A stretch of 58,768 nt of DNA, from positions 1 through 58,768 of the forward strand of contig SUVY01000010.1 in NCBI GenBank assembly GCA_015061775.1. The letters run 5' to 3'. The stretch is from Lentisphaerota bacterium. GTDB taxonomy: Bacteria; Verrucomicrobiota; Lentisphaeria; Victivallales; Victivallaceae. Below, piece by piece: positions 52,639-56,594 of this stretch; within the stretch, counting starts at the first letter, position 1; each line of letters starts with the position of its first letter. Both the position numbers and the translations under genes were made by a program. A model generated the notes under the pieces. That model ran no database searches. It saw only the letters and a program-made list of their open reading frames with translations, and had not been told where the DNA came from.

Positions 52639-53518
52639 AGCAGTCATTCCGGCGGCGGGTTTCGGAACCCGTTTTCTGCCGTTTTCCAAATCCGTGCCCA
52701 AGGAACTTATCCCGCTGGTTGACCGTCCGGTGATCCAGTACGTTCTCGAGGAGGCGGTTGAGGCTGGCATTGAGGACATCCTCATTGTCCTCAGCAGCGA
52801 GAAAGAGGCGGTGATCCGCCACTTCAACCCGGTTCCCGAGCTTGAGAAACGCCTTGCCGAGCGCGGAAAAACTGACGTGCTCAACGAGATCCTCGCCCTC
52901 AACCGTCTGGGCAGGATACACTATGTCTATCAGCAGCAGCTCAACGGACTTGGCGACGCCGTGCTCCAGGCGGATGCGTTCTGCGGGGACGAGCCCTTCG
53001 CCGTGCTGCTCGGAGATACCGTGATGGACAGTTTTGAAGAGCGCTGTGTCACCCGTCAGCTTGCCGATGTGTTCAATAAATACGGTTCGAGCGTGGTGGC
53101 ACTTGAGGAGGTCGCTCCTGAAAAAGTCTCAAGTTACGGCATTGCCGCCGGGGAGTTCTGCGAAAAAGATGTGCTTGCCATCTCAGGAATGGTCGAAAAG
53201 CCGTCTCCGGAAAATGCTCCGTCCCGCCTTGCATTTGCGGCGCGTTACATATTCACTCCGCAAATATTTGATGAGCTGCGCCGCACTCCGCGCGGAAAAG
53301 ACAATGAGCTTCAGCTCACCGACGCCATGTGCCGCCTGCTTGACGGAGCAGGTATGTATGGCTGCCGCATTGCCGGAAAACGGTACGATCTGGGCAGCAA
53401 GATGGGGTTCCTCAAGGGAACCGTAGAGTTTGGTCTCCGCAGAAGTGAATTCAAAGATGCATTTGCTGATTTTCTGCGGGAGACGGTGAAAAAATTGGAT
53501 GAAGAAAAAAGTGTTTGA
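52625..53518 (+). CDS. galU: UTP-glucose-1-phosphate uridylyltransferase
   Basis: Makes UDP-glucose from glucose-1-phosphate and UTP for polysaccharide and glycan synthesis. The 297 residues are typical of GalU. The nucleotide loop KAVIPAAGFGTRFLPFSKSV and KELIPLVDRPVIQYVLEEA are present near the N-terminus, followed by QQLNGLGDAVLQADAFCGDE and AVLLGDTVMD (metal Asp). The later SGMVEKPSPENAPSRLAFAA and KRYDLGSKMGFLKGTVEF also fit. It overlaps the GHMP kinase by 14 bases and the helicase by 20 bases, suggesting a tight three-gene operon. The true sugar could be another hexose-1-phosphate or uronate. Confidence 0.93.
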   Translation: MSIRKAVIPAAGFGTRFLPFSKSVPKELIPLVDRPVIQYVLEEAVEAGIEDILIVLSSEKEAVIRHFNPVPELEKRLAERGKTDVLNEILALNRLGRIHYVYQQQLNGLGDAVLQADAFCGDEPFAVLLGDTVMDSFEERCVTRQLADVFNKYGSSVVALEEVAPEKVSSYGIAAGEFCEKDVLAISGMVEKPSPENAPSRLAFAARYIFTPQIFDELRRTPRGKDNELQLTDAMCRLLDGAGMYGCRIAGKRYDLGSKMGFLKGTVEFGLRRSEFKDAFADFLRETVKKLDEEKSV

Positions 53519-55046
53519 TTTTCTGAAAAAGAGTGTGCTCCGGATATTCGGAGCGAAGACGGAGCCGGAAAAATCCGGCTCAAAATGCAGTAAAAGCGGC
53601 GATGCTAAAGGTAAAAACGGAAGAAAAAAGCCGCAAAATGAGGTAAAAAAATCCGCAAAAGGCGAGAAACGCACCACCGCGAAGCGGACAGCGGCGCAGG
53701 ATAAAGCGCGCAAGGCGGAAAAGTCCGTTGAGCCGCAGAAGCGTAAGACTCCTCCGCGTCCTGAGAGTTTGAAAGAGGTTCCTGTTGTCGAGGGAAAAAT
53801 GCGTTTCCTCGATCTCGCGCTGCATGAGAGCGTGCAGTACAGCGTGCAGTATGCGGGGTTTGAGTATTGTACTCCGATCCAGAGGCTTGCGCTTCCGGCA
53901 TTGCTCGAGGGCAGGGATCTTGCGGCACGCGCCCAGACCGGAACCGGAAAGACGGCAGCGTTCCTGCTTGCATCATTCACCAAACTGCTGAATAATCCGC
54001 TTGCAGAACGCAAAAAAGCTGCTCCGCGCATACTGGTATTGGCTCCGACCCGCGAGCTTGCGGCGCAGATACACTCCGACGCCGAGAAGCTCGGAGTCTA
54101 TACCGGACTCAACAGCGTGGTGGTTTTCGGAGGCATGGACTACGACAAACAGCGCCGCAGTCTCGATACCGAGCTTGATCTTGTCATCGGAACTCCGGGC
54201 AGGGTGATCGATTACTCAAGAAGCGGATTTCTCGATTTGAGCAAGGTGGAGATACTGGTGATCGACGAAGCCGACCGTATGCTCGATATGGGCTTTATTC
54301 CTGATGTGAAGCGCATCGTGTCGATGATTCCGCGCAAGGGGGAGCGTCAGACGCTGATGTTCAGCGCGACGCTTGACGACAGTATCCTGCGTCTTTCCTC
54401 AGGCTGGCTTGCCGATCCCTACGTGGTCGAGAGCGAGCCCGACCAGCTGGTGAGCGGAAACATTGAGCAGAAGTTCTATTCCGTTTCGCGCGACGAGAAG
54501 CTTGCCGTGACGCTGCATATCCTCAACAATACGCAGTTTGAGCGGCTCATCATCTTTGGAAACCGCAAAGACGTCAACTTGCGTCTGCAATATGATCTTG
54601 CCCGCTACGGCCATCTCGTGCCGGTGCTGTCAGGAGATATTCCGCAGGAAAAACGCATAAAGATACTTGAAAAATTCCGTTCCGGAGAGGAAAAAGTCAT
54701 CATAGCAACTGACGTTGCCGCCCGCGGAATCCATGTGGATAACGTAAGTCTGGTCATCAATTATGACCTTCCCGAGCGTTCCGAGGATTATATCCACCGT
54801 ATCGGAAGGACGGGACGCGCCGGAAACACCGGTTGTGCGATAAGCTTTCTATGCGAATACGGAGCATATTATCTGCCCGCCATCGAAGAGCTGCTCAAAA
54901 CGACATTTCCGAGCGAGCTGCCTCCCGAGGAGATGCTGGTGCTTCCGCCAGAGGACCCCAAAGCGAAACTTCCCAGCAAGAACGGATCGACTTCCGGACG
55001 CGGCCGCGGAAACAAAAAGCCGGGCAATTTCCGCCGCAGGCGTTAA
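53499..55046 (+). CDS. DEAD-box RNA helicase
   Basis: ATP-dependent RNA helicase of 515 residues, probably for ribosome assembly or RNA decay. A lysine-rich N-terminal extension (1-95) begins with an amphipathic MKKKVFDFLKKSVLRIFG. Then come the Q motif YCTPIQRLALP, Walker A AQTGTGKT (near 146-153), PTRELAAQ, VIDEADRMLDMG (near 254), the SAT motif, and HRIGRTGRAGNTG (near 434). A short basic tail (GRGRGNKKPGNFRRRR) ends the protein. The start lies inside galU; internal ATG alternatives would remove the extension. Repeat copy D begins four bases after the stop, and a terminator follows at 55235. Confidence 0.94.
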   Translation: MKKKVFDFLKKSVLRIFGAKTEPEKSGSKCSKSGDAKGKNGRKKPQNEVKKSAKGEKRTTAKRTAAQDKARKAEKSVEPQKRKTPPRPESLKEVPVVEGKMRFLDLALHESVQYSVQYAGFEYCTPIQRLALPALLEGRDLAARAQTGTGKTAAFLLASFTKLLNNPLAERKKAAPRILVLAPTRELAAQIHSDAEKLGVYTGLNSVVVFGGMDYDKQRRSLDTELDLVIGTPGRVIDYSRSGFLDLSKVEILVIDEADRMLDMGFIPDVKRIVSMIPRKGERQTLMFSATLDDSILRLSSGWLADPYVVESEPDQLVSGNIEQKFYSVSRDEKLAVTLHILNNTQFERLIIFGNRKDVNLRLQYDLARYGHLVPVLSGDIPQEKRIKILEKFRSGEEKVIIATDVAARGIHVDNVSLVINYDLPERSEDYIHRIGRTGRAGNTGCAISFLCEYGAYYLPAIEELLKTTFPSELPPEEMLVLPPEDPKAKLPSKNGSTSGRGRGNKKPGNFRRRR

Positions 55047-55050
55047 TAGT

Positions 55051-55144
55051 GATGATGCGGGGGATGGGCGAAACTTCTTTTCACGCGCCCCTATCCCCCT
55101 GTCCACCGTAGCCTTGCGCGAAGGTGGAACTTCAAGAAAAGCGG
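55051..55144 (+). repeat. Dispersed palindromic element, copy D (half core deleted)
   Basis: Forward orientation, starting four bases after the helicase stop. The left arm with AACTTCTTTTCACG is present, but the complementary arm is missing. The tail contains the same extra hairpin type as copy A (TCCACC/GGTGGA, 55102-55127) before the CTTCAAGAAAAGCGG end. A reverse partial box (TTATCTCCCCGGATGGGAAC) lies at 55181-55200. Confidence 0.75.
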
Positions 55145-55234
55145 AGTTCTTACAAAATTATCATTTATAACGTGGTTTTATTATCTCCCCGGATGGGAAC
55201 AATACTCGGTAATAAAACCCCGCCGCAAATTACC

Positions 55235-55277: not shown

Positions 55278-55383
55278 CAAGGGAAGGGGAGTGCCCGCCC
55301 TTTTGGCATGGGGCACACTCCTGACCGACTCTCTTCTTTTTTTTCTTCTTCTTTTATATATATTCTTTATGGGGGGCGTGCAG

Positions 55384-55440
55384 AACCGGGGTTTTGATAC
55401 TCCGAAAACCGGGGTTTTGATACGCAGAGAGACGGGGTTT
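55384..55440 (+). repeat. Short direct repeats (iteron-like), 2.5 units
   Basis: AACCGGGGTTTTGATAC occurs at 55384-55400 and 55407-55423 (period 23). A third, shorter CGGGGTTTTTG unit starts at 55433. The spacing is close to two helical turns, so the units could be protein-binding sites; a CRISPR is ruled out by unit number and spacing. Confidence 0.6.
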
Positions 55441-55677
55441 TTGTGAACAGGGCTGCCGCATACCCTGTTTTGTCGAGCAGGGGTATTGGGATGTTAGTTT
55501 TTCAAAACATCGTGAAGAAATCCTATCGTCGTCGGATGTCAAACTTCAAGTCATGACAGAAAAAAGACTTATTTTACCAATCCTCAAGGCTATTTGTTCC
55601 TTATTTCAGACATTTCGTTAGAGGAAGATTAAAACAACGCTTATGCGATGAATAGCCGACAGTAGGACGCAGTAGGA

Positions 55678-56059
55678 GTGAGCCAATATAAAAATTGGCT
55701 CACGACGGGTGCATCCGTCTTCGTTACACTACGCCGTGACAAGGGGAGGAAGCCAGCCCAACGAGGCTGGCTGAGTATCCCGCAGCCCGTCGTACGGGCC
55801 GCATCGCACGCAAGAATGTGCCTGAGCAGCCAGAAAAGGCTGCTCAGGGGCGGCTACTATGCCGCCCGGAGCCGAACGCAGGGAAGAGGCGGATGAAGCC
55901 GGGAGCAGTACGTGGCAATACAAAGCTTCGCAGTCAAAATACCCCAAACCCCAAAAAACAAGGCGGCTATTGATTTTGAGACAAAATCAATAGCCACAGG
56001 TGCAGGGGACTCTCCCCTGCCGGGAGATTTTTAAGAGGCGAGGAGCCTCTTAAACTCCC
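55678..56059. ncRNA. Array of about ten consecutive hairpins, candidate structured RNA
   Basis: Hairpins in order: 55678-55703 (10 bp, loop ATAAAA), 55704-55719 (5-6 bp), 55751-55772 (8 bp, loop CAACGA), 55785-55799 (6 bp), 55806-55821 (4-5 bp), 55821-55848 (11 bp, loop AGAAAA), 55849-55866 (6 bp, loop TACTAT), 55965-55995 (14 bp, loop AGA), 56002-56020 (8 bp) and 56022-56059 (outer 5 bp, inner 9 bp). A CCCGG/CCGGG pair (55865-55869 with 55899-55903) may close a longer domain. Most listed stems are mismatch-free and lie side by side. There is no open frame, no clear promoter and no recognised RNA family. Direction of transcription is unknown. Confidence 0.6.
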
Positions 56060-56144
56060 TTAACATACGATGCAGAAACAAAGCGTTTTTGCAACAGACA
56101 CATTGTGCATACCTGCGACTGGCGCAGGGGGATTTTCTAAGGAC

Positions 56145-56594
56145 TTACGCCTGTTCTTCGACGTCAGCAGCGGCGGCGAGGCGGGCGTTGATCTCGCGTT
56201 TTCCGACGGAGCGGAGATCGCAGATCTTCTGCTTCATCGCAGCGCGGGGAGCTGATTTGCCGAGTTCCCAGATGGAAACGGTGTGGGTGGCGACTCCGAG
56301 GAGTTTGGCAAGCTCAGACTGGGTGAGTTTGTGTTTTTTGCGGATACGGATGATCCCGGCAGCGTTGAGACGGATCTTGGTATCTTCGTTTTCGGCGGCC
56401 TCTTCGATCTCGGCGATTTTTTCCGGATTGGCTTTGCGCATCAGTTTTTCCAGATCGACGATCTGCTTTTTGAGATCAGAGATAGTCTTTTTCTGGTTGG
56501 CGATCTGGGCTGTCAGGGGCTCGAGAGCGATACGGATCTCTTTGCGGGCAAGGCGGCGGATCTCATCGTTGAGCAGGTTTTTCAAGTCCGGCAT
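56145..56594 (-). CDS. XRE-type DNA-binding regulator with coiled-coil N-terminus
   Basis: A 149-residue predicted transcription regulator. The first 70 residues form a charged helical or coiled-coil segment (LTAQIANQKKTISDLKKQIV). Then comes an XRE/Cro-like helix-turn-helix at about 78-125 (RIRKKHKLTQSELAKLLGVA, HTVSIWELGKSAPR), and a basic C-terminus. The layout, with the helix-turn-helix downstream of a coiled coil, is unlike classical phage repressors. AAGGAG precedes the ATG, and TTGACA-N16-TATATT lies about 80 bases upstream. The gene is isolated: the hairpin array lies after its stop and the M28 gene diverges on the other side. Confidence 0.87.
   Translation of the reverse strand: MPDLKNLLNDEIRRLARKEIRIALEPLTAQIANQKKTISDLKKQIVDLEKLMRKANPEKIAEIEEAAENEDTKIRLNAAGIIRIRKKHKLTQSELAKLLGVATHTVSIWELGKSAPRAAMKQKICDLRSVGKREINARLAAAADVEEQA

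Follow-up and report, generated by a model that had tools for sequence, protein, structure and literature searches.

The hairpin array

Positions 55678-56059 of the contig analysed here (58,768 nucleotides from a Lentisphaerota bacterium, hereafter the window) hold a row of about ten side-by-side hairpins, which raises the question of what kind of element this is and whether its folding matters as DNA or as RNA. The row includes six perfect stems of 8 bp or more that do not overlap one another (10, 8, 11, 14, 8 and 10 bp, total 61 bp), and shorter or overlapping stems (55785-55799, 55806-55821, 55848-55867 and others) raise the count to about ten, in agreement with a sequence-only reading of the locus. 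The hexaloops ATAAAA, CAACGA, AGAAAA and TACTAT that this reading listed are all present in the array.

In 1000 dinucleotide shuffles of the array the number of stems of at least 7 bp averaged 0.135 with a maximum of 2, and other 382-base stretches of the window outside the array locus never contained more than two such stems. RNA folding gave z scores of −9.8 for the + strand and −10.2 for the − strand, with none of 100 shuffles folding as well. The claim that the array exceeds random expectation is thus upheld. The same applies to its non-coding character, since the only open frames at the array are two of 72 codons that we judged to have arisen by chance. The XRE regulator gene had been described as pointing away from the array, which is incorrect: it lies on the − strand (56145-56594), ends 86 bases after the array and faces it. 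Because the helicase gene on the other side (53499-55046, + strand) also points toward the array, the array is located between convergent genes.

Dispersed copies and the carrier insertion sequence

Elsewhere in the draft genome (2.70 Mb) the array DNA had 59 matching segments, mostly at contig ends, as is expected because repeats break assemblies. The repeat thereby explains the fragmentation of such MAGs into many contigs. A covariance model of a 108-base core (R1) gave 34 matches in the own genome and 7 in a close relative, G002. The copy number in this Lentisphaeria genome is about 40 or more, and homologues in genomes were found by the dozen. When the exact core pattern was searched in the GTDB r220 contigs, the sole match was the sheep-colon Lentisphaeria MAG RGIG5525, and by this pattern G002 appears to be that MAG.

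Five complete copies of 613, 802, 755, 707 and 699 bp have a common 19-bp terminal inverted repeat. They start with GGGGCTGTTGCAAAACCTT, have a hairpin and then a T-run next to it, and finish with AAGGTTTTGCAACAGCCCC. In genomes G017, G011 and G022 the 5' end of the repeat runs on into an open frame, MAYFTNSQGYLFLCSDIPFEEKQKL..., and a complete 564-aa ORF flanked by these ends, one at each side, is present in G126 and G133, which belong to other genera of the same family. This ORF matched Pfam models DDE_Tnp_1_6, DDE_Tnp_1 and DUF772 above their cut-offs. Its best NCBIfam model was IS1182 (E 2e-70), with 238 bits against a curated cut-off of 270. The IS6 family, at which the terminal inverted repeat had hinted, was dropped once the transposase proved to be IS1182-like. 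In the window, 55567-55632 matched the transposase N-terminus (68%, one stop, E 4e-4), and a MAFFT alignment of 5' ends showed that 55548-55632 is homologous to the start of the IS including the first transposase codons.

The copies and the intact IS1182-like IS therefore have in common the inverted-repeat ends, the subterminal hairpin and the start of the transposase gene. No transposase relatives were found in the own genome or in G002, and none is intact in the copies. Since the ends and the transposase start are shared with an intact IS while no transposase was found in the genome, the array sits in a non-autonomous derivative of an IS1182-like IS, either a MITE or a mobile insertion cassette. 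No target-site duplication was seen at the complete copies, and old age of the copies or recombination could erase one; for this reason we infer the last step of the transposition argument. Target-site duplications of 4 bp are known for ISPse1 (PMC3281130), and one IS1182 MITE lacks them (PMC3852290).

A clean empty site of the window copy was not found in G002, where an unrelated gene follows the helicase and the XRE gene is at a contig start; the flanks of copy L022 were likewise not syntenic. No relative of the IS was found in viral contigs. Short pattern matches obtained there numbered 36; one of them, with 25.7 bits, was judged to be chance because its surroundings are unlike the element. 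Plasmids gave no transposase match with the 52-aa N-terminus as query. Among the earlier suggestions, the mobile non-coding element is well supported by the dispersed copies, their common inverted-repeat ends and the autonomous IS partner. Nothing beyond module shuffling between copies supports a recombination or packaging site.

Organization of the window copy

The window copy of the dispersed repeat spans about 55487-56101, with its 3' end kept (56082-56101) and its outer 5' end decayed (Table 1). Over 55548-56097 it is 82% identical to copy L009 by BLASTN.

Table 1. Features of the window copy of the repeat
Feature	Position	Strand	Basis
Probable outer 5' end, strongly decayed (position of 5' inverted repeat and terminal hairpin)	55487-55547	+	5' ends of the IS and the repeat aligned with MAFFT; weak similarity, border uncertain
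IS 5' end remnant and first transposase codons	55548-55632	+	5'-end alignment; transposase match 55567-55632
Hairpin H1, GTGAGCCAAT-ATAAAA-ATTGGCTCAC	55678-55703	+	Perfect 10-bp stem; at least 4 stem alleles across copies, nearly all paired
Exchangeable module B, GGTGCATCCGTCTTCGTTACACTACGCCGTGACAAGGGG and hairpins 55751-55772 and 55785-55799	55708-55800	+	Relocated/duplicated or replaced in other copies
30-mer TCCGTCTTCGTTACACTACGCCGTGACAAG, dispersed across the genus	55714-55743	+	Multiple copies in about 20 other genomes of the genus
Hairpin C (GCAC..GTGC)	55806-55821	+	Paired in 18/18 copies
Hairpin D, CCTGAGCAGCC-AGAAAA-GGCTGCTCAGG	55821-55848	+	Corresponds to the related family's apical NNAAAA hairpin; copies in G002 show compensatory pairs
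Hairpin E, GGGCGGC-TACTAT-GCCGCCC	55848-55867	+	One compensatory pair, one G-U
Linker GAGCCGAAC	55869-55877	+	Identical to the linker of family members in G010 and G015
Hairpin G, the most variable one, with a perfect 14-bp stem	55965-55995	+	At least 6 distinct stem sequences, pairing kept
Hairpin H, GGTGCAGGGGACTCTCCCCTGC	55999-56020	+	Corresponds to P4, the related family's last hairpin
Hairpin I, GGGAG..TTTAAGAGGC..GCCTCTTAAA..CTCCC	56023-56059	+	Invariant inner stem (29 copies)
3' terminal inverted repeat, window form GTGTCTGTTGCAAAAACGCT, consensus GGGGCTGTTGCAAAACCTT	56082-56101	−	Shared ends of complete copies

Other repeats were noticed in and around the element. The 30-mer TCCGTCTTCGTTACACTACGCCGTGACAAG also occurs outside these elements in about 20 genomes of the genus (loci L049-L058). 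Just upstream of the element, window positions 55382-55441 consist of three head-to-tail 23-base units, AACCGGGGTTTTGATAC..., and right after the helicase gene (55051-55186) there is a second dispersed repeat matching L031 (72%), L044 (82%) and part of L024.

Module exchange and pairing among copies

Comparison of the copies revealed exchange of whole modules. The 93-base module B takes the place of hairpin H in L012, L013, L035 and L039, and is itself substituted by other hairpins in L015, L017 and L022. Within the hairpins both arms of the stems change with retention of pairing. The outcome that the sequence-only reading had named as refuting, a lack of homologues or of compensating changes in the stems, thus did not occur. 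The alleles of H1 and hairpin G are almost all perfectly paired, and hairpins D, E and H showed double changes with essentially no broken pairs. The poor score of helix 4 in the multi-copy alignment was due only to MAFFT misplacing alleles, and that helix was therefore evaluated hairpin by hairpin. Concerted stem changes can also arise in palindromes by template switching, without selection.

A structured family in related species

The end sequence GGCTGTTGCAAAACC was found in 31 of 34 genomes of the genus when one mismatch was allowed. The interiors between such ends are species-specific and hairpin-rich, with folding z scores of −4 to −9, and these genomes contain many copies of a hairpin whose hexaloop reads NNAAAA. 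The family architecture starts with a hairpin TCCGGGGG..CCCCCGGA and a long hairpin GTGGCGCAA..[apical NNAAAA]..TTGCGCCAC, and continues with the linker ACATGAGYCGAACCACCACC, a short hairpin and a last hairpin GGTGCAGGGG..CCCCTGC that is followed by A-runs. The block of the related species can thus be recognized by its NNAAAA-loop hairpin, GAGYCGAAC linker and GGTGCAGGGG hairpin, with up to 25 copies per genome. With a model built from six species, leaving out the own genome and G002 (R2), 16 of 137 genomes of the order were positive, with up to 25 copies each, and another genus (G111) contributed 20 copies. Tandem copies of the structured block were observed at L247:738-1172 (G001) and L218:498-771 (G028).

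Covariation in an unfitted MAFFT alignment was 0.142, compared to 0.092 after shuffling and at most 0.058 after sliding. When 35 sense copies were fitted to the model, double changes were seen in 21 of 28 pairs and 177 double-change cells were counted (48 shuffled, at most 25 slid); alignments A6 and A7 lean toward the model structure because of this fitting. Antisense partial matches to the model in A6 reflect self-complementarity and were taken out for A7. Non-Watson-Crick pairs on the + strand comprised 27 G-U and 7 A-C pairs (p 8e-4), or 18 and 6 once one nearly always G-U column was removed. This excess of G-U over A-C favours + strand RNA, although strand-biased mutation could contribute to the excess.

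The block is not simply the middle of one IS, since it lies within IS1182-type ends in three species (G012, G021 and G026, the last at L109 with E 2e-8 and 2e-9), and in G033 (L213:344-1020) another inverted repeat, 30 bases long, encloses it (GCAGTCTGC.. TTTGATATTTTGCGGGGTTACGCTTT, 90%). Judged by these ends, cargo and carrier are separable.

How well the window array fits this family was evaluated from the order of its elements and from model scores. The order corresponds, with the NNAAAA hairpin D (55821), the linker GAGCCGAAC (55869) and the GGTGCAGGGG..CCCCTGC hairpin H (55999). H1 has the same hexaloop, and in other copies a second GGTGCAGGG hairpin comes after H1; the sequences suggest that the window-type array consists of two tandem, shortened family units. 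In cmsearch runs, in which E-values are rough and the genome is a draft, only hairpin D of the window copy matched the family models (R2 local match, 17.5 bits, E 0.014), while copies of the own genome gave 7e-4 to 0.16 (L009 0.0095 with R2, H1 region 7e-4 with R3). A G002 copy, L141, gave a full-length R2 match (E 1.5e-4) and a weak R3 match (0.004). The array probably represents a divergent variant, doubled in part, of the structured repeats seen throughout the genus and in a second genus of the same taxonomic family. Of the suggestion that it is a large structured RNA, the conserved and covarying pairing stands for the related family, whereas membership of the window copy in this genus-wide family is likely, not proven.

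Genomic location

Across the copies, 58 of 72 neighbouring genes point toward the element (p 2e-7), a conservative count since the 3' neighbour in the window was scored as a spurious frame whereas the XRE gene faces the element. The element ends are mostly 15-40 bp from stop codons, and the copies are mostly between convergent genes. This placement may be typical of the IS family itself, because IS1182 insertions were over-represented between convergent genes in a published survey (PMC9208149), or it may reflect survival of harmless insertions.

Solo hairpins GGCTGTTGC..GCAACAGCC with a T-run and without cargo were also observed at gene ends, at L067, L068, L072 and L087 in the own genome and at L107 and L131 in relatives. 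They are possibly bare terminators, deletion remnants or empty forms. A long near-perfect hairpin at L017:406-509 with weak Rfam scores to plant miRNA precursors is probably another palindromic repeat or terminator.

Comparison to known RNA classes and repeats

The sequence-only reading could not assign the array to a known RNA class, and this holds: searches of Rfam at gathering and relaxed thresholds gave no family above the gathering threshold, including HEARO, group II introns and Acido-Lenti-1. No report of this repeat was found in the published literature.

Several known systems are similar in part. The IS1182-family MITEs, such as those derived from ISMac2 in Methanosarcina acetivorans, are likewise non-autonomous and multi-copy, with IS1182-type ends and no ORF, but measure 160-169 bp instead of 613-802 bp and lack the large, structured, modular and covarying cargo and the transposase-gene fossil of the present elements (PMC3852290). 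The present elements also resemble in their ends a second type of IS derivative. Mobile insertion cassettes (MICs) consist of transposase-less IS ends around unrelated cargo; here the cargo is non-coding structured DNA or RNA rather than a gene. BIME/REP, ERIC and BOX repeats are many-copy intergenic mosaics of palindromic modules at gene 3' ends. The present element shares this modular build and location, but has its own sequences, IS1182-type ends and a conserved order of multiple hairpins with a constant linker. HEARO and omega RNAs are also structured RNAs carried by transposons, but the element described here has no Rfam match or nuclease gene and its ends are of the DDE type.

Proposed explanation and alternatives

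We consider it probable that a non-autonomous IS1182-derived element carries the array as its cargo; this cargo would be kept folded because it acts as a + strand RNA, most likely within 3'-UTRs. In the copies a row of hairpins stands in place of the middle of the IS, with retention of the ends and the transposase start. Copies would have been moved in trans by an IS1182-like transposase that has since disappeared from this genome, and they may have accumulated at their present sites by insertion near terminators or by selection against other sites. Transcription of the cargo could occur by read-through from a flanking gene or from a retained transposase promoter. A promoter-like TTGTTT-17-TATAAT sequence of the transposase survives upstream of the array in some copies; a standard promoter scan did not score it in L009. 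A role as + strand RNA would keep the cargo folded. Our best guess, by analogy, is a mobile 3'-UTR RNA element, and the likeliest role would be to end or stabilise transcripts, as with BIME or BOX repeats.

The main alternative is that the array is selfish or inert palindromic filler, in which template switching and gene conversion between copies generate the palindromes and keep them perfect without any selection on RNA. Palindrome correction alters both arms together, modules are visibly swapped between copies, hairpins also exist as separate repeats, and many interiors are wholly different between species, all of which suits such filler. It does not account for the same hairpin order with a conserved unpaired linker across species and in a second genus, nor for the 27:7 ratio of G-U to A-C, which palindrome repair does not predict, and we consider it rather unlikely. 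Doubtful as well is the idea that the element serves mainly to terminate transcription in both directions, as an island between convergent genes with the inner hairpins as by-products. The 5' end is indeed itself a hairpin with a T-run behind it (GGGGCTGTTGC..GCAACAGCCTTTTTCT), and hairpins of the 5'-end sequence also stand alone at gene ends (L067, L068 and L087), but the inner hairpins lack T-runs, and elsewhere the family often occurs without these ends and has A-runs after its last hairpin.

If the array belonged to a nuclease or retroelement system as its guide or effector RNA (omega RNA/HEARO, retron, or group II intron remnant), it would likewise be a large structured RNA in a transposon, and the position of the insertions downstream of genes is reminiscent of group IIC introns. 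This origin is very improbable in view of the lack of Rfam matches to HEARO, group II introns and retrons, the absence of such a gene adjacent to the array, and the DDE-transposon type of the ends.

Returning to an IS-borne cargo that acts as RNA, a further-reaching version, which we put forward only tentatively and hold to be less than evenly probable, is that the cargo represents a new structured RNA class carried by unrelated transposon ends. It would have spread in up to dozens of copies to gene 3' ends across the Lentisphaeria as a mobile RNA module with a function of its own, selection maintaining the fold during turnover of sequence and ends; the carriers would be of the IS1182 type in this species, G012, G021 and G026, and of the GCAGTCTGC inverted-repeat type in G033.

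Bacterial MITEs usually carry little, whereas here a large hairpin assembly is the cargo. From species to species the arrangement of its hairpins, its linker and its base pairing are maintained, even though the sequence and the transposon ends differ. Should this assembly act as RNA, it would be an unrecorded RNA family that borrows DNA transposons to travel and settles at the ends of genes.
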